Virus record (IMG/VR): IMGVR_UViG_3300044952_000107
Span: 1 to 27,041 of that record
DNA: 27,041 nt
Direction: 5' to 3' (one strand)
Origin: a virus
The position numbers were made by a program, and so were the translations under genes. The notes under the pieces are model-generated. The model was not told the DNA's origin. It saw nothing but the letters and a program-made list of their open reading frames with translations, and searched no databases. This document shows positions 13,868 to 25,771 of this stretch, one piece after another (position 1 is the stretch's first letter; each line of letters starts with the position of its first letter).

Positions 13868-14062
13868 TTAAACCCGCCATACGCGCAAGCCTTTTACGCC
13901 TTCTTCTATAACTACTTTTGTAACCACAGGTATCTTTAACCGCCTACAGATTGCGGTAATTTCTTGCCGGGCGGCTTTCTCGTCAATGCAGAGTACAAAG
14001 AAAGAGTAGCCACGCCGAAATTTAGACCAATCAATTTGATACGTCACCGTCTCGATTTTCAT
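13868..14062 (-). CDS. Small conserved phage protein (64 aa), unknown function
   Basis: This 64-aa ORF begins with ATG inside the last codons of the primase-helicase gene (32-nt overlap) and is the last gene of the minus arm. The sequence is compact, alternating strand and helix: KIETVTYQIDW, then GYSFFVLCID, then a helix KAARQEITAICRRL, then VVTKVVIEEGVKGLRVWRV. The strand-helix-strand pattern and the GLRVWR ending match a small protein I recognise from many phage genomes, never with an assigned function. Its 3' end carries an inverted repeat, GGGTTTA with TAAACCC (13854-13875), which may be a transcript-end hairpin before the terminator. It is likely real because of conservation of this pattern and operon position. 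Confidence 0.75.
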   Translation of the reverse strand: MKIETVTYQIDWSKFRRGYSFFVLCIDEKAARQEITAICRRLKIPVVTKVVIEEGVKGLRVWRV

Positions 14063-16883
14063 CTGTAGCTACAAGGGCGTCCATCTGTAAGAACTCGGTG
14101 GCTGATGCGTCAAACTTCAGCACCCGAACTGCGGGGGATACAACCTTCATGCCTTTGGACATTCGCTTGTTCACACCCTCTAAATAAATCTTGGCGTTAC
14201 CTAACTCTTTCAAGGTGGTCTTGTAATTAATCTGCTGTTTGACGCAAAAGTCTTTAAATTGCTTGGCCGCAATAAAGAGTTCTTTGGTATCTGGCTCGTA
14301 GCGTATGAGCAACTCTCCACGGGGCTCGAGCATAGGCATAGACTGCAGGTTACTACGAGCATCGACCTCACCATTTACAACTAAAGCGTTAATAATATGG
14401 GCGTTAACAAACTCACCAAGGATTGTTACGGGTGTTGAGTTTGGTGCTTGTATCTCAAACCGCATCTCACCTAACATGCCTTTAAGCCAGTCGTACACAG
14501 CCTTCATGTCGTAGTTGTGCAGTTCTAGTTGGGATGCAATCAAACCACCAGCTATGTTACACGCCGACACACCTGACCAGAAACGCTCCTTCTGATTAAA
14601 CTGTACTTCTCTATCAAGCCGAGCCTGAATCTTGCGCACCAAGGCTATTGCTTCTTCCAAGTTATTAACAAGCCACTGGATGTAGATTTCGCCCGCATGC
14701 CCAAAGTTCTCACGCAGTTGGTGGTCAAACATCTGCTTACCCTCTTGCACCTCAATGATGCCGTTGGGTTCAATCTTGTACTCAAGTAGACGCATGGACT
14801 CACCATCGGGCGTATTCTTTGCTACACCTAACTTTTCATAGAAGCTGGCGTTTGCCGAGCACAAAGTCATACCCTGCCAGCTAGTGTTGTTAACACGCAA
14901 CGTATTGGTCTGCCCGTTCATTTTGTTTTTGCCTCGGCCTTGGCTAATGCTGTACGCCAAGTCAGAGAACTCCATGCCACTCAAGTTGGTAATCTCGTCA
15001 ATGGTGTTAGGCAGATTGTTCATCACGCCAAGCTGGTGCATCTTTGCGTTGAACGTATCCTTGTACATAGAGGTTAACCCCTTGGGTTCACCATACACAC
15101 TGTTGCACATAAACAACGCTGTCGACTTACCTGAACCAGACTCGGGGTGAATCACGTTAATGATCGCACCTTCAAGACCTGTAAATTTCAACAGTGGTGA
15201 GCCGAATGCCGTGAGTGCGGCAAACGCATGGGGTTCAAGCCCCGGCCTAGCGTACATGTTGAACGCTTCTTTCCACTTCTCCATCGTGCCTTTGGCAATT
15301 AGCTTTGCGGCAATATCTTTTGTAACGCTTGACGGCGGGCTGTAAAACACTCCGTCTTTTGTAATCTCTCTATCACCGAGGATGAACTTGCTGTTCCCCT
15401 CGACCCAACCAAACTGAGTTCTCATGGTTTCTGCCTTTTTAATGTATTGCAAATTTTTTATAAAGAAAACAACATACCTTGCAAGCAATTCGTACTGTGA
15501 CTTGTGGGCTACAACTCCGTTATGTGCCAACTGTTTGCGCAACTCATCAGGTGAAGAGATACCCATCGTGGGGATACTGAACTCTCGGACACCGTCATGC
15601 GGTAAGTGCAAACGAAACAAAGCTATCTCGCCAAGCTCAGGATCGCGCATGCGCTTGACTACGTATAAGTCATGCTCGTACACAAGTTTTGGCTCGGCTT
15701 CGTCGTCTTCGCTTTCGGGGCGGATGTAAACACCACCCTTTTTGCCACGGAAGAACGGAAATGGGTACTCTGGTATGTGCTGTATCTCAACCTCACCGTC
15801 TTTATCTTCAACGGCATATTCGTTATCTTCTGCTTCGGCTTGTTCAATTTCAACACCAAGCATGATGGGCGATTTAATTTTGCCTCTATGGATGCAACCC
15901 TCACAACCTTGCGGATTGAGTTTTGCAAATGTCGCGCAGTGATGTGGGCCACCCTTGCTACGTAGGTTGTTAACTTTATTATCAACTTCTACGGCATCGT
16001 AACCCTCATGTTTGTTCGACAGTTTATGTGCAGCCTTGTCTCCATCTACGCAGAAAGCCGCAATAGAAAGAGCGGAGCGCCACAACGGTTCTTCAATATC
16101 GTTTTGGTTTTCAAAGCAGTGATTAAGTTGGGCGCACCCACCTTCACCCTTCATCATGATCGTCTTAAACCGCTTGACCTTGTTACCCATGAGCGCTTCC
16201 ATCATCGGGCTCAATGAGCGCGGGATGAAGTCAGGTACGTCGTCCTTTGGTTCAGGCGCACCAAGCAAGTCTTTAACTTCTTGGTATGTCATGCGAGGCG
16301 TCAGTTCGTTTAGTACTGTTACCTCTTTGGGCTCTTCCTGTTTGAAATTGAATGTGCCGGGGATGCGCAGGATACGTGAAGCCTCAAAGACTGAGGAGTC
16401 CACAATCAACCCTTGCTCAACGCACAACTCACGAAGCCTGTTGGCTAGTGGCTCCCATTCTCGGCGAGACACTGTTTCTTCTAGTAGCCAGTACGCATGT
16501 ATGCCGTAACCAGAACTTACTAGTATTGGCCTTGGTAAGCCGACCGCAATGCAGAACTTCTTGAACTCATCGAGTCCGGTTTGCTGATCGAGATAGCCCT
16601 TGATAATGCCTTTTTTGTCGGGTACACCTTTGGTTGGGCCACAGTCAATGTCCATCCACAGAGCACGGAAGTATTTTGCATTCTCATGAGTGCGGTTGTT
16701 TAACGATCCGTACTTGGCGCATCCAAAGAATACGTCAATCTTGCGTTTAACAAACTGCTGCGCTAGCTCTTCAACCTCTTCCTTAGTATCTACAAAATTC
16801 TGGTCAGGATACTTACCAATCCCCATCACACAGTAGCGCCCTTCCGGTGGCAGTACCGTATCGAGTAGATCGAAAGATGACAT
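14031..16883 (-). CDS. Primase-helicase: AEP-type primase fused to DUF927-like helicase (950 aa)
   Basis: Predicted to make primers and unwind DNA at the phage fork. The N-terminal AEP (archaeo-eukaryotic primase) core shows motif I W-M-D78-I-D80, motif II S-G-Y-G-I-H129, and motif III V-D162 followed by R170-x-x-R173-I-P-G-T. A Cys/His cluster with C316, C327, C330 and H332 looks like a zinc-binding element between the domains. An acidic linker (about 345-365) leads to a helicase domain with Walker A G583-S-G-K-S-T (K586) and Walker B T-I-D629-E630, in a context like DUF927/superfamily 3-type phage helicases. The length suits a fusion of both functions. The start codon lies three bases after the preceding regulator's stop; its own Shine-Dalgarno is weak, suggesting translational coupling. 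No Toprim domain is present, so it is not T7 gp4-like. Confidence 0.85.
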   Translation of the reverse strand: MSSFDLLDTVLPPEGRYCVMGIGKYPDQNFVDTKEEVEELAQQFVKRKIDVFFGCAKYGSLNNRTHENAKYFRALWMDIDCGPTKGVPDKKGIIKGYLDQQTGLDEFKKFCIAVGLPRPILVSSGYGIHAYWLLEETVSRREWEPLANRLRELCVEQGLIVDSSVFEASRILRIPGTFNFKQEEPKEVTVLNELTPRMTYQEVKDLLGAPEPKDDVPDFIPRSLSPMMEALMGNKVKRFKTIMMKGEGGCAQLNHCFENQNDIEEPLWRSALSIAAFCVDGDKAAHKLSNKHEGYDAVEVDNKVNNLRSKGGPHHCATFAKLNPQGCEGCIHRGKIKSPIMLGVEIEQAEAEDNEYAVEDKDGEVEIQHIPEYPFPFFRGKKGGVYIRPESEDDEAEPKLVYEHDLYVVKRMRDPELGEIALFRLHLPHDGVREFSIPTMGISSPDELRKQLAHNGVVAHKSQYELLARYVVFFIKNLQYIKKAETMRTQFGWVEGNSKFILGDREITKDGVFYSPPSSVTKDIAAKLIAKGTMEKWKEAFNMYARPGLEPHAFAALTAFGSPLLKFTGLEGAIINVIHPESGSGKSTALFMCNSVYGEPKGLTSMYKDTFNAKMHQLGVMNNLPNTIDEITNLSGMEFSDLAYSISQGRGKNKMNGQTNTLRVNNTSWQGMTLCSANASFYEKLGVAKNTPDGESMRLLEYKIEPNGIIEVQEGKQMFDHQLRENFGHAGEIYIQWLVNNLEEAIALVRKIQARLDREVQFNQKERFWSGVSACNIAGGLIASQLELHNYDMKAVYDWLKGMLGEMRFEIQAPNSTPVTILGEFVNAHIINALVVNGEVDARSNLQSMPMLEPRGELLIRYEPDTKELFIAAKQFKDFCVKQQINYKTTLKELGNAKIYLEGVNKRMSKGMKVVSPAVRVLKFDASATEFLQMDALVATDENRDGDVSN

Positions 16884-16886
16884 GTT

Positions 16887-17135
16887 TTACTTTATTTGGA
16901 TGGTGGCTTGGGTATGGTTTATGTAATCGCTAATGGCTTCATCGTAGCTATGGTAGGGGACAGAATCCCCCTTAAACCAATTGTAGATAGTCATCCGAGT
17001 CACCCCGAAGAACCCTGCAACTTCGCTAACGCTGATGTTTGCGCGGATACAAACACGACCCAAGGCCACACCCAAAGACTTGATGCTTGCTTTTCTATTT
17101 GCATACACCAAGCTTTGGCTGTAACCATAGGGCAT
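16887..17135 (-). CDS. Cro/XRE-like helix-turn-helix protein (82 aa)
   Basis: A small DNA-binding protein. Residues 35-55 (SVSEVAGFFGVTRMTIYNWF) form a classic helix-turn-helix with the recognition helix starting at TRMTIYNWF, followed by a short helical tail. I place the start at ATG 17135, where GAGGA lies 5 nt upstream; a GTG at 17150 would add five residues but has no good ribosome site. The upstream gene's TAA falls between GAGGA and the ATG, so the two genes are probably coupled. It lies between the ssDNA-binding candidate and the primase-helicase, so it may regulate this unit or act at the replication origin; the target is unknown. A possible operator is the inverted repeat at 18472-18491. 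Confidence 0.8.
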   Translation of the reverse strand: MPYGYSQSLVYANRKASIKSLGVALGRVCIRANISVSEVAGFFGVTRMTIYNWFKGDSVPYHSYDEAISDYINHTQATIQIK

Positions 17136-17136
17136 A

Positions 17137-18021
17137 TTAATCCTCGTCACTCCAAGCCTTCACCACAGAGTCAAGGTCTTTTTTAACTGTGGGTTTAGGG
17201 TCGGCTTTCTTTTCACGCTTAGTGGGTTCCTCAATAGGAGACTCAGCTTTAGGCGCGGCGGCTTTCGGTGCTTCTAACTTAGCGGCTTTACCTGCCATGT
17301 CAGCTTGGTATGGTGTCATAACGACCATCTTCAGCACGTCAGGCTTCTTAGCTACTTCGCTAGTCACAGCATATTGAGCTTTGTTAATGTAACCAGTCGG
17401 CGTGAACAGTACAGACTGGTTATCGTTCTCTTCGTTGAAGCTGATCTGCGTAACAACGTAGTCCAAGCTCTTGCCGTTGTTGGACAAGTACTTAGAGTAG
17501 TTTTCAAATGTATGTGAATTTTCACCAGTACCGTCACCGAACAATGACTTAGAAGCCAAATTCATTTGATACACTTCGCCTTCGAGTGAAGTACCAAAGT
17601 CTTCTTCCAACACAAGCGCAATGCGACGTGAGTAACGGCAAGCCTTTGAGTTGCCCATACCTGAACCCTTGGTGTTTTGGGTGCAGTTATCGCAACGCTC
17701 AGCTTGTTTGTTTGTCGCACCATCATCAGGCGTACGACCATCATTAGAGAAGCAGTCGGGCGCAGTCGGCTCAGCATCGGGACTCCATGCTTTTGCATAG
17801 AAGATACGACCCACAGCAGGGGACGCATTAACGATGATGGCGTTCAGGTTGCCCTTGATCTTGCCCATCTCTTCACCACCGACCGTTTTACGGAAGATTC
17901 CGTTTTTAGGCACGATGCGCTTAACGCCAGACTTACCGGCTAATTGTTTTGTGAGCTCACTAACCCCTGCAGTTTGCAGAAAGTCGGGGAGGTCTTGGTT
18001 GAGAATAGTAAGATTACTCAT
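17137..18021 (-). CDS. Candidate ssDNA-binding replication protein, four-Cys, acidic tail (294 aa)
   Basis: The start is taken at ATG 18021, which has AAGGA 8-9 nt upstream and lies one base after the previous stop; a longer frame to 18081 would overlap that gene. An N-terminal mixed alpha/beta region is followed by a Cys-rich insertion with C90, C110, C113 and C128 (C-x19-C-x2-C-x14-C), likely zinc-binding. A second beta-rich segment comes next, then an Ala/Lys/Pro-rich linker (about 240-282), ending in the acidic, aromatic tip VKAWSDED. An acidic C-terminal tip is a hallmark of bacterial and T7-type SSB proteins. With the primase-helicase downstream, a single-strand DNA-binding role is the best guess. 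I recognise the Cys pattern from other aquatic phages, where it is usually unannotated; function is inferred. Confidence 0.6.
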   Translation of the reverse strand: MSNLTILNQDLPDFLQTAGVSELTKQLAGKSGVKRIVPKNGIFRKTVGGEEMGKIKGNLNAIIVNASPAVGRIFYAKAWSPDAEPTAPDCFSNDGRTPDDGATNKQAERCDNCTQNTKGSGMGNSKACRYSRRIALVLEEDFGTSLEGEVYQMNLASKSLFGDGTGENSHTFENYSKYLSNNGKSLDYVVTQISFNEENDNQSVLFTPTGYINKAQYAVTSEVAKKPDVLKMVVMTPYQADMAGKAAKLEAPKAAAPKAESPIEEPTKREKKADPKPTVKKDLDSVVKAWSDED

Positions 18022-18022
18022 T

Positions 18023-18448
18023 TCATTTTTCCTTAGAACGTCTAACAACCACGGTATAAGCATTTTCCACATTGAGGCCAAGTGGAAGAACTGTGGGATT
18101 CTCAGATAAAAACTCCTTCATGTTTGTTTGATGAAGTCTCTTCTCTAACAGGCCAAATGCACCATGCTCCTCTATGAAGTCGTACATTGAATCCCAATCA
18201 TTCGTCCAGTACCGTGACTTTACCGAACGAATAATTGTGCCGTGTGGGGTGCGAATGCTATCAGCATTCATGTCTTTGCATATATCAAGCATCTGTGCTT
18301 CTAACACTTCTGCTTGCTCTTTGAGGTCGTTGTCTTCAGCTTCAAACATGCGCTTATTGTCGGCACGTTTATCTCTGATCTTGATGTAAATAGACGTTAG
18401 CTTTGCTAAGTCCATAGAGGTAACTCTGTCTTTGACTTCTTCGTCCAT
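18023..18448 (-). CDS. Coiled-coil phage protein of unknown function (141 aa)
   Basis: The start is ATG with GGAGA 6-7 nt upstream. Residues about 15-60 are strongly charged and helical (IYIKIRDKRADNKRMFEAED), likely a coiled coil. A short segment TPHGTIIRSVKSRYW follows, then DWDSMYDFIEEHGAFGLLEKR and a C-terminal strand ending in VVVRRSKEK. The layout recalls phage Gp157-like host-interaction or recombination-accessory proteins, but the resemblance is only in architecture. It is the first gene after promoter 18567-18594, separated by one base from the SSB candidate, so the two products are probably made together. No catalytic motif is visible. Confidence 0.75.
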   Translation of the reverse strand: MDEEVKDRVTSMDLAKLTSIYIKIRDKRADNKRMFEAEDNDLKEQAEVLEAQMLDICKDMNADSIRTPHGTIIRSVKSRYWTNDWDSMYDFIEEHGAFGLLEKRLHQTNMKEFLSENPTVLPLGLNVENAYTVVVRRSKEK

Positions 18449-18471
18449 CTAATTCTCCTAATGGTTGGGTG

Positions 18472-18491
18472 TGTGACAGTAGCAGTTCACA
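18472..18491. promoter_or_regulatory. Inverted repeat, possible operator
   Basis: TGTGA and TCACA form perfect 5-bp arms separated by 10 bases in the untranslated leader between promoter 18567-18594 and the 141-aa gene. A Cro/XRE-like gene lies downstream in the same unit. The arms match CRP half-sites, but the 10-base gap differs from the 6 bases of a CRP site. A regulatory role is only a possibility. Confidence 0.3.
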
Positions 18492-18566
18492 TAAAGCAGT
18501 GTGTTTCAAAACTATGGAGGTTTGTAACGGCGCTAACCCGTCACCTACCACCGCCACACAAATACA

Positions 18567-18594
18567 AGTGTACTCTAACTTTTTACATTGTCAA
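18567..18594 (-). promoter_or_regulatory. Sigma70-like promoter P1 for the SSB-primase unit
   Basis: On the minus strand: -35 TTGACA (18594-18589), a 16-nt spacer, and -10 TACACT (18572-18567). The -35 lies inside the end of the helicase gene and the -10 just past its stop. Eleven spacer bases (GTAAAAAGTTA) are identical to those of the promoter at 24744-24771. The expected transcript starts near 18560, leaving a leader of about 110 nt before the ATG at 18448. Confidence 0.7.
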
Positions 18595-19978
18595 GAGTTT
18601 CCGAAGAAATTTCTTGCTTGTACAGATCAATTACTTTTTGATGGTTGTTGATGTTGCCCTGAAGCATCGTGTACATCTTAGCCTCGATGGGGCTACCCGT
18701 AATGTGTACGACTGTCATGTTATTAACTTGCCCGGGGCGGTCGATACGTGCGTTGGCTTGCAAGTACGTTTCAACACTTGTGCATGGAGCATACCAAATA
18801 ATTGTGTTGGCGGCAGTTAGAGTTAACCCGTGTGACGCCGCCTTCGGTTGGATGATTAGTACTTTTGGTTCTTGTTGCTCTTGAAACTGTTTGACAATAT
18901 CCGAACGTTTATTTACAGGAACCGCGCCGTTAATTACTTCGCACGTGATGTTGTTTTTTTGCAAATGCTTCTCAAGTAATTGTATGGTGTGCGTGAACGG
19001 AACAAACACAAGCACCTTGTGGCTTGACTCTTCAATTACTTCTTGAACTACGTTGAGCCTACTGCTCACATCAAACTCAATAACTTCGCTTGTATCCGTA
19101 TACACCGCACCTCCAGCTATTTGCAAGAGTTTGTTAATTTGTACGGCAGCGTTAACGGCTGATACTTCTTCGCCAGCAGCCTCAATCAACATCTGCTTCT
19201 TTAGTATGTTGTAGAACTTTAACTGCTGCGGTGTCAATGGTGCATCTCGCTCAACAAACGTAACGGGCGGCAAATCAAGGCAGTCGGCTTTCTCAAACCG
19301 AATGGCTGGCTGTAATGCTTTGTGAACGATTAGCTGTGCAGTTGGCTTGGGTATCCACTTGTACATAGTAAGCTTCATCATCACTGTGTCGCGGAACTGA
19401 CCAAAGAAAGGCGACACACCCTTGGGGTTCACAAGCTTTGCCAATCCGTAAGCATCCACAGGTGACTGTGCGGCAGGCGTACCAGTCAACATCCACAAGC
19501 CCTTGATAACTTTTGTTAGGTCTCGTAGGTCTTTCCAACGCTCTGTCTGCGCATTTTTATAAGCTGACGCTTCATCCACTACGATGAGGTCAAACCCACC
19601 CGCCATGATTTCTTTCTTGACGATGCCCACACCATCGAAGTTGATAACAACGAACTCGGCACCAAGACTAATAATCTCTTTGCGCTTACGTGCGGCTCCA
19701 TAAGCGACTGATACGGTGCGGTGGATGGCAAACTTAAACAAATCATTCTGCCAAGCCGACTTCATGATCGACAAAGGGCAGATCACTAATACACGCTTCA
19801 CTAATCCAATGGTAATCAAGTAATCGACTGCCCAAATAACTGATGCTGTCTTACCTGTACCTTGCTCGTTAAAACAGAACGCCTTGCGGTTTGTTATAAG
19901 GAATTCTGATGTTGTCTTCTGATGCTCGAATGGCGTGAACCCCGGAGGACGAGGCCACGTATACTCTGATAGGTTCAT
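18575..19978 (-). CDS. SNF2/DEAD-type DNA helicase (467 aa)
   Basis: A superfamily 2 helicase of the SNF2-like phage type. Visible motifs: FTPFEHQ with Q20 near the N-terminus; Walker A E-Q-G-T-G-K43-T; motif Ia-like VICPLS; Walker B V-V-D135-E136-A-S; motif III L-T-G-T-P-A (154-159); a second RecA-like domain with SHGLTLTAANTIIWY (motif V region); and motif VI A-R-I-D-R-P-G-Q near residue 415. The 467-aa length is that of minimal phage members with no accessory domain. It likely remodels DNA or protein-DNA complexes during replication or recombination. The ATG overlaps the previous stop by four bases (ATGA). Its last codons contain the -35 of promoter P1. Confidence 0.9.
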   Translation of the reverse strand: MNLSEYTWPRPPGFTPFEHQKTTSEFLITNRKAFCFNEQGTGKTASVIWAVDYLITIGLVKRVLVICPLSIMKSAWQNDLFKFAIHRTVSVAYGAARKRKEIISLGAEFVVINFDGVGIVKKEIMAGGFDLIVVDEASAYKNAQTERWKDLRDLTKVIKGLWMLTGTPAAQSPVDAYGLAKLVNPKGVSPFFGQFRDTVMMKLTMYKWIPKPTAQLIVHKALQPAIRFEKADCLDLPPVTFVERDAPLTPQQLKFYNILKKQMLIEAAGEEVSAVNAAVQINKLLQIAGGAVYTDTSEVIEFDVSSRLNVVQEVIEESSHKVLVFVPFTHTIQLLEKHLQKNNITCEVINGAVPVNKRSDIVKQFQEQQEPKVLIIQPKAASHGLTLTAANTIIWYAPCTSVETYLQANARIDRPGQVNNMTVVHITGSPIEAKMYTMLQGNINNHQKVIDLYKQEISSETLDNVKS

Positions 19979-20290: not shown

Positions 20291-20953
20291 TTAGTTCCTG
20301 TTGTATTCACATTCTCTCACTGAGCAGAACTTGCACAGTGGGCCTTGGATTGGATTCCATACCCCATTTTCTAACGCCGCCTCAATTCTTGCAACATCTC
20401 GGGCGAGAGGCTCAATATATTTCTCTACCATTTCTGTATAGTGCATAGCCCGCACGAATTCCTTGCTGACTACAAACAAGAGAGCCGACTTCACCTTTCG
20501 AATCTCCGGAAACTTGGCGAATAATCCACAGGCGACAAGATCCAGTTGCTTCACATCCGCATATCTCGCACTCTTGCTTGTCTTGTAGTCTATGGAGTGT
20601 GCCGTCCCCGTTGTCCGATTGATAATCACCAAATCCGCTACCCCATGCCACCATACATTCGGAGCATCGAATTCGCACGACTCTAAGTTCTTCGTCAACC
20701 CAAGTTTTACTTCGCATAACTTCTCTCCGGGGATGTCTTTTAGGACGTCTAGGGTAGCTTGCATATAAGCAAACTGTTCAGGGATCGGCACCCCATCACG
20801 AATGTATTCCTCTGCCACAGTATGAGCTGTCTTTCCATACAGTGTTGCCTGTGTGTCCGGCTCAACAATGTCCTTGGCTATCTTGGTGTGGTAGTACTTC
20901 TTAGGGCACTGTTGAAATGTTTTCAGGCTACTGAATGACCAAACGATACTCAT
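20291..20953 (-). CDS. PD-(D/E)XK exonuclease, Cas4/RecB-like with Fe-S cysteines (220 aa)
   Basis: A RecB-family nuclease. It begins with a Ser/Leu-rich FSSLKTFQQCPKKYY segment carrying C16, then Y-G-K-T-A-H44 (conserved His motif), G-V-A-D107 (metal-binding Asp), I-D122-Y-K124 (the D/ExK motif), and Q136 in QLDLVA (motif IV). The C-terminus has C207-x2-C210 and C215. C16 plus these three fit the four-Cys iron-sulphur cluster of Cas4 and AddB-type nucleases. Single-strand exonuclease or DNA end-processing activity is expected from the family. There is no Cas1/Cas2 or repeat array here, so it is a phage recombination or replication nuclease, not a CRISPR component. It starts 12 nt after the upstream stop with a weak AGAAAGA ribosome site. 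Confidence 0.85.
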   Translation of the reverse strand: MSIVWSFSSLKTFQQCPKKYYHTKIAKDIVEPDTQATLYGKTAHTVAEEYIRDGVPIPEQFAYMQATLDVLKDIPGEKLCEVKLGLTKNLESCEFDAPNVWWHGVADLVIINRTTGTAHSIDYKTSKSARYADVKQLDLVACGLFAKFPEIRKVKSALLFVVSKEFVRAMHYTEMVEKYIEPLARDVARIEAALENGVWNPIQGPLCKFCSVRECEYNRN

Positions 20954-22073: not shown

Positions 22074-22294
22074 AAATCATCTAAGCCTTTCTTTAGGAAT
22101 TCTTCAAAATGTTCATCATCTTCTTTGGTTTGGTACATCAACTCTACAAACTGCAAAAGATTAGCAAAGTCACCGCGAATCTCAATTTCGTCAATGTCTT
22201 TTTCTTCTTGACCATCTGGGATAAGCCCCGCCATTAACGCAAACGAAACAACGGAACTAAGTCGTACCCTTGAAATTTTCTTAACATTCTCCAT
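22070..22294 (-). CDS. Small hypothetical protein after PolA (74 aa)
   Basis: I use ATG 22294 because GGAG lies 6 nt upstream; an ATG at 22306 would have AGGA almost touching it. The start overlaps the last codons of the DNA polymerase gene by 14 nt. The N-terminus is basic (MENVKKISRVRLSS) with a short hydrophobic segment (VVSFALMAGLI). The rest is very acidic, ending FEEFLKKGLDDL. It is not recognised. Strong acidity in the C-terminal half suggests a protein-binding or DNA-mimic-like surface, which is speculative. Confidence 0.7.
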   Translation of the reverse strand: MENVKKISRVRLSSVVSFALMAGLIPDGQEEKDIDEIEIRGDFANLLQFVELMYQTKEDDEHFEEFLKKGLDDL

Positions 22295-24098
22295 AGCTTG
22301 CTCCATATCCTGCTTCGCAGTTCAGCGGTAACTCCATACCCCAATCCGGGCGGGTGCGCATGCACATCTCAACGTACTCCAAAGCAGTTTCAACTTCTGC
22401 TTCGGGTGCAATACAAGCGATGGCATCATGCACAGTCATCACAACTCGGTACTTCTTCGCAACCAAGAGCATCTGCTCACCAATCACGATACGGGCTAAC
22501 GCTTGGCACACGTTCTCAATTACCTTACCACCATAAATGCGTGTCGGAATAATTGCTTTGCCCTTCTTGGTGTCGTACACCAGCTCCGACTTACCTTCGT
22601 CGTTCTCAAGTATGCGCAGGTTGGGATAGCGTAGGTACAAACCATTGGGAAGTAAAACACCGCTATTGCCATCTATCTTTAAAATATCGCCTCGGCCTAA
22701 TGTGGTCTGCTGATTCTGTAATACAGCTTTGAGGGCTGTCGCCGCAGACTTCCATAGCTCAGTAATCTTCGGATACGTTGCGCGGTACGTGTCGATAATC
22801 CGTGTCGCTTCGTCCAACGTAATCTCCACATTAAAGTTCTTGAGTTGAGCTTGGAACTTCTTCGCACCCATTCCGTATCCGCACCCAAGAATAGTGGTCT
22901 TACCAACAAACCTCTCGTCCTTCGTAATTTCTGTGACGTCCTTGCTATAGATAGCAGATGCCATGATTTTGTATACATCTTCACCCCGATCAAATGCGTC
23001 AACTAAGTCGTCTTGTTCCGCAAGCCATGCTAGCGTACGGGCTTCAATTTGTGATGAGTCCGAATCAATCATCATGTATCCGTCCGGGGCAATGATTGCC
23101 TTCTTCAGCGGAGATGTACGTTGTAGGTTCTGCAAGTTGAGCTTGTCATCCCCACCCCACCGCCCTGTGTGGGCGGCATAGTAGCGTAGGGGTACAGGCA
23201 ACGAGCCACGCTTGGCAATACCAAGAAACCTTTCAGTTCTTGTCTCTTCTATCGTAGACTTAGTGCCCAGTCTCGCTGCCACTAAAGATTGAACCTGTGT
23301 ATTCGGATGCTCGAGCAATGCCTTGAACTCTTCGTCTGTCTTAGAGAAAGCAAAGGTTTGCTTGCCGTTTGCGGGGCTGACTTTCATCGGTGGTGATACA
23401 CCATAGCCTTCCAAGATAATGGCAAACTTTACGTTGCTCATCAGGTCGTCTTTGTCGAAGTTCTCGAGTAGCTCTTCCTTGCGTTGCTTCTCCCGCAACA
23501 AATGGTCTTTGATAAGGTCTCCATTCAACTGCAACACAGGGTCGGTAAACATGCGAACAGTCAAATCAATCAGGCGCAACTCAATAGGCGGGAAGCCTTT
23601 GCTCATTGCCCCAAACAATTCCCACGTAAGCGTAACGTCGTTCTTGCAGTAGTCGCCATAGCGAGCTAACTGCTCGGGGCTGAAGTCCTGACGCCGCAAA
23701 CCTAATGCATTTTCTACCTCTGTACCCTTCTCGCCAAGCCCATAGAAGTTTGACAGCACCTTTAAGCTACCGCCTACTTGCGTACCATGCAAGGCTCTAC
23801 CCATAGATAAAGTATCAAGCCAACCTTTGGGGCTGATGCCGTAGACCCACTTCAAAATTGCGCCATCAAACGGGGCGTTGTGCGCAAGCGCCAAACTGTT
23901 AGCCCAATCGTATCGGGTAAGGAACTGGTGCATGGATTCACCATCGCCACTAAACCACTTGGGCTCACCATCGTTGACCTGTACGGCTACGCCAATAGTT
24001 TCGAACTGTGGGCTACGAACGTATTCCTCCGTGGTAACTTTTGTTAGGCTAAACTCCCGAGAATAATATGTCTCGAAGTCGATTGTTAATATGTTCAC
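22281..24098 (-). CDS. polA: Family A DNA polymerase with 3'-5' exonuclease domain (605 aa)
   Basis: The phage replicative polymerase. I place the start at GTG 24098, since GGAG lies 8 nt upstream; GTG 24107 would add three residues but overlaps that GGAG. Exonuclease (residues about 1-165) is of DEDDy type: D7 and E9 in TIDFE, N74 and D78 in HNAPFD, Y150 and D154 in YCKND. Polymerase: motif A D347-S-S-Q-I-E, motif B R396-x3-K400-x3-L404-x3-Y408 (in TTILGCGYG), motif C V-H557-D558-A. There is no 5' nuclease domain, as usual for phage PolA. The residue matching E. coli Phe762 is Leu, and the aromatic after the motif A Asp is Ser. The gene is tightly coupled with a VRR-NUC nuclease upstream. 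Confidence 0.93.
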   Translation of the reverse strand: MNILTIDFETYYSREFSLTKVTTEEYVRSPQFETIGVAVQVNDGEPKWFSGDGESMHQFLTRYDWANSLALAHNAPFDGAILKWVYGISPKGWLDTLSMGRALHGTQVGGSLKVLSNFYGLGEKGTEVENALGLRRQDFSPEQLARYGDYCKNDVTLTWELFGAMSKGFPPIELRLIDLTVRMFTDPVLQLNGDLIKDHLLREKQRKEELLENFDKDDLMSNVKFAIILEGYGVSPPMKVSPANGKQTFAFSKTDEEFKALLEHPNTQVQSLVAARLGTKSTIEETRTERFLGIAKRGSLPVPLRYYAAHTGRWGGDDKLNLQNLQRTSPLKKAIIAPDGYMMIDSDSSQIEARTLAWLAEQDDLVDAFDRGEDVYKIMASAIYSKDVTEITKDERFVGKTTILGCGYGMGAKKFQAQLKNFNVEITLDEATRIIDTYRATYPKITELWKSAATALKAVLQNQQTTLGRGDILKIDGNSGVLLPNGLYLRYPNLRILENDEGKSELVYDTKKGKAIIPTRIYGGKVIENVCQALARIVIGEQMLLVAKKYRVVMTVHDAIACIAPEAEVETALEYVEMCMRTRPDWGMELPLNCEAGYGASYGEC

Positions 24099-24391
24099 TG
24101 CATGCACTCCGATATAACATTTGTTAGGTATTCAAGGTTGTCTTCACGAATGATGCATGTGTAACCGCCCGATGCGTTGATCGTTTCTAGATTCTTTAGT
24201 TGTAGCGCGGTTGCTTGTCCCTTGCCAGCTTTGGCTTCGATCGCTACGAACTTGCCGTTCACGCAACACAGGAAGTCAGGCACACCGCTATTGCCGTAGC
24301 CAGTGCCGATAGGCATAGCGTAGTAGATGTTGTGGGCTTTTAAGATAGCCTTGATCTTTGCCTTGACCTTGGCTTCAGGTGTCGTTGCCAT
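24095..24391 (-). CDS. VRR-NUC domain nuclease (98 aa)
   Basis: A stand-alone VRR-NUC (PD-(D/E)XK superfamily) nuclease. The N-terminal helix EAKVKAKIKAILKAH supplies E6. Then come IGTGYGNSGVPDF with D39, FVAIEAKAGKGQ with E52-x-K54, and Q63 in the TALQLKNLETI helix, which is the standard order. A length near 100 residues is typical for phage versions. Family members act on structured or branched DNA; the exact substrate here is unknown. The start is ATG 24391 with GGAAGAG upstream, and its last residues overlap the PolA start. Confidence 0.88.
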   Translation of the reverse strand: MATTPEAKVKAKIKAILKAHNIYYAMPIGTGYGNSGVPDFLCCVNGKFVAIEAKAGKGQATALQLKNLETINASGGYTCIIREDNLEYLTNVISECMQ

Positions 24392-24713
24392 AGATCATGC
24401 TCTTCCATACTGAGACCGAGGGCATGTGGTTGTGTGACTTGGTCGGTGTCGTGTAACCATTGTGGGCAATCCATCCGAGCGTACTCAAAGTGCGTACGCC
24501 TGATACCCATACGTTAGGGTGCAGTTCTTTGGGTCGGAATAAAAGTTTCTTGCCGCAGTACTCTCGGAACTCATCGCCGAGAACAACTGGTTTAGACACT
24601 AACAACTCTTCTGCTAACTCTAAGTAGCGCTCAACAAACTCGGGGTTTGCTTTGCTTGCCTTTGACCAACACTTGTCGGCAAGGGCAAGTGCGTTGTCCA
24701 TACGTTCATTCAT
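24375..24713 (-). CDS. Hypothetical protein, possible winged-helix fold (112 aa)
   Basis: The start is ATG 24713 with GGAG 7 nt upstream; the frame extends to a TTG at 24737 that lacks a ribosome site and falls at the predicted transcript start. The first half is helical (MDNALALADKCWSKASKA, ERYLELAEELL). The second half, with FREYCGKKLL, VWVSGVRTLSTLGWIAH and NGYT before a final strand, resembles a winged helix seen in unannotated phage proteins close to replication genes. It is the first gene after promoter P2 and overlaps the VRR-NUC gene by 17 nt. DNA binding is plausible but not shown by a diagnostic motif. Confidence 0.7.
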   Translation of the reverse strand: MNERMDNALALADKCWSKASKANPEFVERYLELAEELLVSKPVVLGDEFREYCGKKLLFRPKELHPNVWVSGVRTLSTLGWIAHNGYTTPTKSHNHMPSVSVWKSMIYGNDT

Positions 24714-24743: not shown

Positions 24744-24771
24744 ATAATAGCATAACTTTTTACTTTGTCAA
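24744..24771 (-). promoter_or_regulatory. Sigma70-like promoter P2 with extended -10, for the polymerase-helicase unit
   Basis: On the minus strand: -35 TTGACA (24771-24766), a 16-nt spacer, and -10 TATTAT (24749-24744) preceded by TGC, i.e. an extended -10. The spacer contains GTAAAAAGTTA, identical to promoter 18567-18594. It lies just past a terminator (24783-24808) and about 30 nt before the ATG at 24713, so the leader is short. Confidence 0.8.
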
Positions 24772-24782
24772 TAGTACAGACG

Positions 24783-24808
24783 AAAAAAAGCCCGCACTAG
24801 ACGGGCTT
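24783..24808 (-). terminator. Rho-independent terminator after the HTH-DUF3310 gene
   Basis: Minus strand: AAGCCCG (from 24808) and CGGGCTT (to 24788) pair in a 7-bp stem with a 7-nt loop, followed by a T-run (A at 24783-24789). It is positioned 22 nt past the stop of the gene ending at 24830 and directly before promoter P2, so it separates the small-gene unit from the polymerase unit. Confidence 0.85.
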
Positions 24809-24829: not shown

Positions 24830-25408
24830 TCACTTGAGCGAATTAATCTCACGTGTCAGATACCATTGTGCTTTGCGCAAGTCTTCCAACTTGTTGCCTT
24901 TGTGGTCGGCACGAGTCAGATACTTAATCACATTGCCAAGGTTGTACCCGAGCTTCTTAGCTTCGATGAAGTCGATCGTCTCGATTCCACCTACTGTGTA
25001 ATGAGCAGGGTTGTTGACCGGGTCGGGCTTAGGCTCAAACATTTCGATCTGGCGTTGTCCTTGCATACGCAACTTTGCTTTTGCTACCCCCGCTTCATAC
25101 GCAAGTTGTGCCATACGCTTGGGTGTCGTATCCGTAACCGAATCCTTATAAAAAGGAATGTCCGATGAAGCAAACGCAATCGTCTTCCAGTTAGATTTGT
25201 CAGTCATGGCTTTCTTCTTTTGCATCCCCCCAAGCTTCTTCGCTATTTTGGCTTTCTTCTTTGCGTTCCACAATACTGTGGATACATAAGCAGGGGTTAC
25301 GCCTATCGCCTTGGCTACGTCTACTGACTTAGCCTTTGGGTTAGACGCAACGTAGTTACGGATTTGTGCTGACTTGGTTGCTTTTGGTATTGTTGCTAAT
25401 TCGATCAT
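24830..25408 (-). CDS. HTH domain fused to DUF3310 (192 aa)
   Basis: Residues about 12-46 form a helix-turn-helix (KSAQIRNYVASN, then VDVAKAIGVTPAYVSTVLW), followed by a Lys-rich linker. Residues about 131-190 are a DUF3310 domain: VNNPAHYTVGGIETIDFI, then GNVIKYLTRADHKG and LEDLRKAQWYLTREI. DUF3310 is a small all-helical domain common in phages and sometimes described as nucleotide-kinase-like; its activity is not settled. Many phage copies are the domain alone, so the N-terminal HTH is notable and suggests DNA targeting or autoregulation. The start is ATG with AGGAA upstream, overlapping the previous stop by four bases. It is the last gene of its transcription unit, ended by terminator 24783-24808. 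Confidence 0.85.
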   Translation of the reverse strand: MIELATIPKATKSAQIRNYVASNPKAKSVDVAKAIGVTPAYVSTVLWNAKKKAKIAKKLGGMQKKKAMTDKSNWKTIAFASSDIPFYKDSVTDTTPKRMAQLAYEAGVAKAKLRMQGQRQIEMFEPKPDPVNNPAHYTVGGIETIDFIEAKKLGYNLGNVIKYLTRADHKGNKLEDLRKAQWYLTREINSLK

Positions 25409-25611
25409 GATTTATTTCCTGTTTGGTTGTTAACGTACTCGGTAAGAACTTCTCTCATTTTGGCTTGCTTTGTATACGCATAGTTTGTGTTGAAGTAATC
25501 CATCACATCCTTTGGTAGACGCAAGCTCGTACAAGATAGTGCGGGTTTCTTACCAAGCCCCCGCCCTTTCTTTTGTTGTTCCGGTTTTAGGTATTCAATT
25601 CCTGTTGTCAT
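25405..25611 (-). CDS. Ribbon-helix-helix-like small protein (68 aa)
   Basis: After a basic N-terminal arm (EQQKKGRGLGKKPA), the segment LSCTSLRLPKDVMDYFN gives a short strand and helix, and KQAKMREVLTEYVNN a second helix. This is the strand-helix-helix order of Arc/MetJ/CopG proteins, so dimeric DNA binding is likely. GAGG lies about 8 nt before the ATG. It overlaps the 58-aa gene upstream by 17 nt and the HTH-DUF3310 gene by four. The target site is unknown. Confidence 0.7.
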   Translation of the reverse strand: MTTGIEYLKPEQQKKGRGLGKKPALSCTSLRLPKDVMDYFNTNYAYTKQAKMREVLTEYVNNQTGNKS

Positions 25612-25771
25612 TTAATAATCCCTCGTAGTATTTCTTAGGCATTGGTGCTTTCTTATCCAATAGCTCACGTAGCCATTGCGCACCACCAAGCTGTTGCAGT
25701 ATTAACCAATGCCTGTCCGACATTCGTACCTGTCTCCCCAATAGTTTCTCGGGCGGTTTAGGTCTTGGCAT
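25595..25771 (-). CDS. Very short conserved phage protein (58 aa)
   Basis: A 58-aa ORF read directly from the minus strand, starting ATG at 25771 with AGGGAG about 9 nt upstream and ending TGA at 25597-25595. It begins MPRPKPPEKLLGRQVRMSDR, continues with HWLILQQLGGAQWLRELLDK, and ends in a Lys/Asn tail. The RxVRMSDRxW ... LGGAxWLRxLLDK pattern is one I know from many phage small proteins and from ribbon-helix-helix-like regulators. It fills the otherwise empty space between the zinc-ribbon gene (14-nt overlap) and the ribbon-helix-helix-like gene (17-nt overlap). Function is unknown; DNA binding is possible. Confidence 0.8.
   Translation of the reverse strand: MPRPKPPEKLLGRQVRMSDRHWLILQQLGGAQWLRELLDKKAPMPKKYYEGLLNDNRN

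Follow-up and report, generated by a model that had tools for sequence, protein, structure and literature searches.

What raises a question at this locus is that two promoters of one phage share an almost identical −35 box and spacer. The window analysed here—the whole of a 27,041-base virus record (IMGVR_UViG_3300044952_000107, positions 1 to 27,041)—contains long plus-strand open reading frames in the left half, and a replication module comprising polymerase A, exonuclease, SNF2 helicase and primase on the minus strand. The earlier note had described two minus-strand promoters, each with TTGACA and a 16-nt spacer, and the sequence confirmed them. P1 (18567–18594) reads TTGACA-ATGTAAAAAGTTAGAG-TACACT from 18594 to 18567, with the −35 at 18594–18589 and the −10 at 18572–18567; P2 (24744–24771) reads TTGACA-AAGTAAAAAGTTATGC-TATTAT from 24771 to 24744, with an extended −10 (TGC-TATTAT). 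As also stated there, the two sites differ at one of 19 positions from the −35 through the shared block, and their −10 hexamers are unlike. Both are of the sigma70 type (TTGACA-like −35, 16–18 nt spacer, TATAAT-like −10), with a spacer of 16 nt and hexamer matches at 10 of 12 positions in P1 and 11 of 12 in P2, and both are kept in relatives. Judging by these elements, transcription is expected to start at ~18560 and ~24737, respectively. P1 overlaps the end of the SNF2 helicase gene, its last codons and stop included, while an intrinsic terminator (24788–24808, minus strand) lies immediately upstream of P2; a hairpin and T-run ahead of P2 are found in relatives, too.

All genes of the two putative units lie on the minus strand. 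The P1 operon begins with a 141-aa protein (18023–18448, phrog_13900) annotated as ‘minor head protein’, a doubtful name given that its homologues (including those in Xp15 and KPP25) adjoin the helicase inside the replication module in several phages. It continues with a protein of up to 314 aa whose start is uncertain (17137–18081, phrog_27714), followed, as third gene, by a helix-turn-helix (HTH) protein of the XRE/Cro-like type (16887–17150, likely start 17135; 82–87 aa), and also includes a primase/helicase-type protein (DUF927, 14031–16883). The P2 operon comprises a first ORF of ~112 aa (24375–24711, ATG at 24711), a family A DNA polymerase (22281–24107), an exonuclease (20291–20953) and the SNF2-type helicase (18575–19978), whose stop codon overlaps P1. 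Upstream of P2 lie a 192-aa protein that combines an N-terminal winged-HTH-like part with a DUF3310 domain at its C terminus (24830–25408), conserved in all six of six long relatives, and two small ribbon-helix-helix (RHH)-like proteins (25405–25611 and 25595–25771), the 68-aa one of which is conserved in relatives.

P1 and P2 were the sole matches to their common pattern at three or fewer mismatches in the 27 kb (shuffled sequences gave a mean of 0.17 matches, and two of 100 gave two), a figure that is post hoc, the pattern having been derived from the sites themselves. Within the window alone, the match is modestly unlikely, and with a pattern picked in this manner the relatives have to decide. 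Further copies in relatives, whose absence the earlier note had named as grounds for abandoning the idea, proved plentiful. The exact 19-mer matched 94 IMG/VR stretches; the majority are orthologous to P1 or P2, and several contigs carry both. Relatives gathered by their helicase or polymerase protein, so as to avoid selection by motif, likewise carry both promoter sites. The promoter at the helicase end is kept in nearly all relatives with at least 79% helicase identity; as its placement with respect to the helicase stop, and its frame, differ among them, conservation acts at the level of DNA rather than protein. The P2 site upstream of the polymerase is conserved as well. In 19 long contigs, the block-plus-promoter pattern occurs mostly twice, with 5–8 kb between P1 at the helicase stop and P2 ahead of the DNA polymerase, and stray one-mismatch matches are few; where a few contigs have a single copy, the second is more divergent than the pattern or lies off the contig. 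These sequences are metagenomic, relatives within a clade are not independent of each other, and a search for host assignment returned only four matches to metagenome-assembled genomes (MAGs), their taxonomy too mixed to be of use.

Neither chance similarity nor recent duplication of a promoter—readings for which the modest improbability of the match within the window left room—can be given more than minimal weight at this point. Conservation of both sites, each at its orthologous place, within the family rules out chance, and because P1 and P2 are each orthologous across relatives down to ~65–70% protein identity, the recent duplication implied by the earlier note’s ‘duplicated promoter’ is unsupported.

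The unit that is conserved is a 13-bp palindrome, TNNAC-N3-GTNNA, which comprises the −35 box and the first spacer bases. Its copies read TTGAC-AAT-GTAAA over the P1 −35 (18582–18594, minus strand) and TTGAC-AAA-GTAAA over the P2 −35 (24759–24771, minus strand). The proposal of a phage-specific operator coordinating two replication units gained support, while the unit that had been named as the element, the eleven-base run GTAAAAAGTTA, did not hold: the remainder of that run is a version specific to the window’s clade. Among 132 distinct promoters (64 P1, 68 P2), 131 contain the palindrome, the sole exception being a mis-pick in coding sequence on a contig too short to hold P2. Within the dyad, the pairs T1/A13, A4/T10 and C5/G9 are essentially invariant, and positions 2–3 and 11–12 vary within a limited alphabet. 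The spacer of 16 nt at times extends to 17 at P2 with the operator block intact, and one deep clade retains the block despite a poor −10. In several genomes the half-sites exchange ends (P1 TTGAC-AAT-GTACA, P2 TGTAC-AAA-GTCAA), with the consequence that P2 loses its −35 consensus. Within a genome, the blocks at P1 and P2 are also more alike than pairs drawn across genome clusters (permutation p < 1/20,000), in a clustered test that corrects for phylogeny only roughly; a first within-genome permutation test ignores phylogeny. Two distant relatives (L467 and L499), with helicase identities of 54–55%, carry the block as TTGAC-ACT-GTATA over the −10, not the −35. A third operator-like palindrome, in the primase gene (15655–15667), recurs in four relatives (G001, G002, G003 and G006); it was rejected as an operator, its central triplet not being A/T-rich, and its recurrence probably reflects coding conservation.

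Could the conserved spacer reflect a preference of the host RNA polymerase or sigma factor, and thus be a feature of the promoter rather than an operator? The constant coincidence of block and −35 in the main family would agree with this. Yet, such a preference accounts neither for the dyad symmetry and half-site swapping nor for retention of the block where −10 spacing or quality changes, and in L467 it is the −10 that the block overlaps. At P2, moreover, positions 2–3 of the −35 vary and 4–5 are fixed, and ordinary −35 boxes do not vary in that way. We therefore hold this explanation to be very improbable. Swapping of half-sites points to a dimeric DNA-binding protein instead, and the invariant dyad, the swapping and the within-genome likeness together fit the operator of a symmetric dimer better than they do a sigma-factor preference.

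Which protein might this be? From sequence, the product of the third P1-operon gene, the HTH protein, is the most likely candidate for the predicted binding to both operator copies. It is present in nearly all family members examined. An AlphaFold model (pLDDT 86.6) has five helices, and its best Foldseek matches are XRE DNA-binding domains, with a probability of up to 0.97 at a weak E-value of ~0.7; C.BclI is among these structural matches. Pfam HTH_3 matched 32 of 37 family members, with the window’s protein under the curated cut-off, and across the family HTH_3, P22_Cro and Phage_CI_repr all scored low. As modelled, the protein thus appears to be a small helical HTH domain with an XRE-like fold.

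The second residue of its recognition helix (in the window’s protein M53 by the 87-aa numbering, M48 by the 82-aa one) covaries with operator position 12. A was found at this position with M or Q in the helix in 88 of 89 cases, and C or T with A or S in 32 of 36; a helix T is mostly paired with T at operator position 11. Exceptions are the four of 36 A/S operators that retain A, and contigs L155 and L156. Ranked by mutual information with operator position 12, the helix residue came first among 1,434 variable columns from six neighbouring proteins, followed by another residue of the HTH protein, and it remained first of 1,921 columns after the polymerase, RHH and DUF3310 proteins had been added. 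Since all columns have one phylogeny in common, the ranking is partly shielded from phylogenetic confounding. Explicit phylogenetic tests gave modest results: each trait changed seven times, the informative independent pairs numbered ~2.4 and all pointed the same way, and Pagel’s likelihood ratio was 23.1 with a post hoc grouping and 12.6 without it, compared with 16.7 for one control column. Contigs later found via an unrelated RNA motif agree with the covariation: M accompanies GTCAA in six contigs, all from one clade, and A accompanies GTATA in L467. The 933W repressor, modelled on that of 434, makes contact with half-site positions 2 and 3 through the second residue of its recognition helix (PMC3317979); by analogy with this geometry, the contacted positions would be the very ones that covary here.

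The same ranking bears on whether another factor reads the block, be it the RHH protein (25405–25611), the winged-HTH–DUF3310 protein (24830–25408) or a host regulator. The two phage proteins have their genes close upstream of P2, most or all of the six long relatives retain them, and RHH residue 15 took sixth place among the 1,921 columns. However, sixth and 23rd were the best places reached by RHH and DUF3310 columns, respectively, against first for the HTH recognition helix, and covariation with a residue of a phage HTH protein would be unexpected for a host regulator. A different reader of the block is thus improbable, if less so than a sigma-factor preference.

We consider it likely that a dimer of the HTH protein binds the operators at P1 and P2 and represses both replication operons. 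The conservation of promoters and palindrome, the half-site swapping, the helix–operator covariation and the XRE-like fold were all obtained by computation; we infer that the protein dimerises and binds, that its effect is to repress and not to activate, and the timing. In the proposed mechanism, two sigma70-type promoters would each have their −35 overlapped by a single TNNAC-N3-GTNNA operator. The HTH protein, made from the P1 operon, would bind both copies as a dimer, with the second recognition-helix residue reading base pairs 2 and 3 of the half-site. Because the operator covers the −35, obstruction of sigma would be the simplest effect of a bound dimer, which would shut off both operons as the protein accumulates; and as its gene would be transcribed from P1, P1 would come under negative feedback, with P2 shut off in coordination. 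It counts against this mechanism that the operators are single rather than tandem, which leaves cooperativity unexplained.

The HTH protein might conversely bind the block and activate P1 and P2, for instance as a middle-gene activator touching sigma. XRE proteins are able to activate as well as repress, and the −10 boxes of P1 are weak in some relatives. PMC3115060 describes controller (C) proteins as both activating and repressing. Against an activator, the −35 that the operator overlaps is close to consensus, and P2 has an extended −10 as well, so that none should be needed. We regard activation as unlikely, although slightly less so than a different reader of the block, and retain repression by the HTH dimer as the preferred reading.

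Between P1 and the first gene, the transcript would contain a structured leader RNA (18459–18566, minus strand) formed by a long stem, a GGGTTAGCGCC hairpin and a CACTGCTTYATGTG hairpin. Both hairpins are invariant, with the loops GGGUUAGCGCC and CACUGCUUYAUGUG, and the stems covary strongly. Across 40 leaders, 98.1% of cells were paired and 14 of 26 pairs had double-sided changes; none of 500 shuffles matched this, and slid controls collapsed. A pattern search returned at least 119 viral stretches, and 85 of the 106 matches examined sit in stretches in which no helicase relative was detected. A model aligned 76 places with still stronger covariation, in an alignment that is itself fitted to the structure. 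Within the phage family, the RNA is patchy and single-copy; leader-type RNA was also seen in L434, L446, L455, L476, L488, L499 and others, some stretches having two copies. Rfam 15 gave no leader match in the window up to an E-value of 1, and in nine other contigs that carry the RNA, the matches were limited to int-alpA, located elsewhere, and a weak mir-191 hit. The int-alpA RNA (RF02996) occurs in L434, L471, L482 and L483, away from the leader-type RNA. The P1 leader looks like an undescribed class of phage RNA without an Rfam 15 match; it may act by binding a ligand or a protein, or by protecting the mRNA. On balance, we favor the view that P1 stacks two uncharacterised layers: a co-evolving Cro-like operator and repressor, and, from about +1, a non-Rfam leader RNA found in many phage contigs that are otherwise unrelated.

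If true, this would provide a wiring rule for a large family of uncultured phages, in which one small regulator acts through two matching operators on two replication operons. The operator and recognition-helix variants of relatives (M/Q, A/S, T) would constitute a natural specificity series, usable to test rules of HTH–DNA recognition without a cultured phage, and the P1 leader would be a new class of structured phage RNA.

Isolated phages gave no nucleotide match to the window. The nearest by protein, at no more than 40% identity, are Rhizobium RHph_TM, Pseudomonas KPP25 and Rollin, Xanthomonas Xp15 and Acinetobacter Effie, and these nearest isolates have neither the block nor a detectable HTH homologue. 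At the helicase end, Xp15 (L233) and Rollin (L234) have promoter-like sequences at the same place that lack the GT-N2-A block, and a large hairpin is apparent in the Xp15 leader. Among known regulators, the LexA box of Bdellovibrio is of the TTAC-N3-GTAA type and thus resembles the operator in its AC-N3-GT palindrome core. LexA, however, is a host SOS regulator, for which covariation with a phage HTH protein would be unexpected, and the literature searched returned no TTAC-N3-GTAA motif and no support for a LexA box here. C proteins such as C.Esp1396I are small homodimeric HTH proteins with pseudo-symmetric operators and a short central spacer, the dimer here being our inference; unlike their adjacent operator pairs at restriction-modification genes, the operators here are single, one 13-bp copy per promoter with no second copy nearby, and lie at replication genes. 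With the lambdoid CI/Cro proteins of 434 and 933W, the system shares a small XRE-type HTH, a short palindromic operator over a promoter, and the matching of the second recognition-helix residue to half-site positions 2–3 (PMC3317979). It departs from them in having one operator at each of two promoters ~6 kb apart, with no divergent pair seen—in six long contigs, the blocks at P1 and P2 lie far apart on one strand, not as the tandem divergent operators of a lambda-type switch—and in placing the regulator gene inside a replication operon of lytic type.
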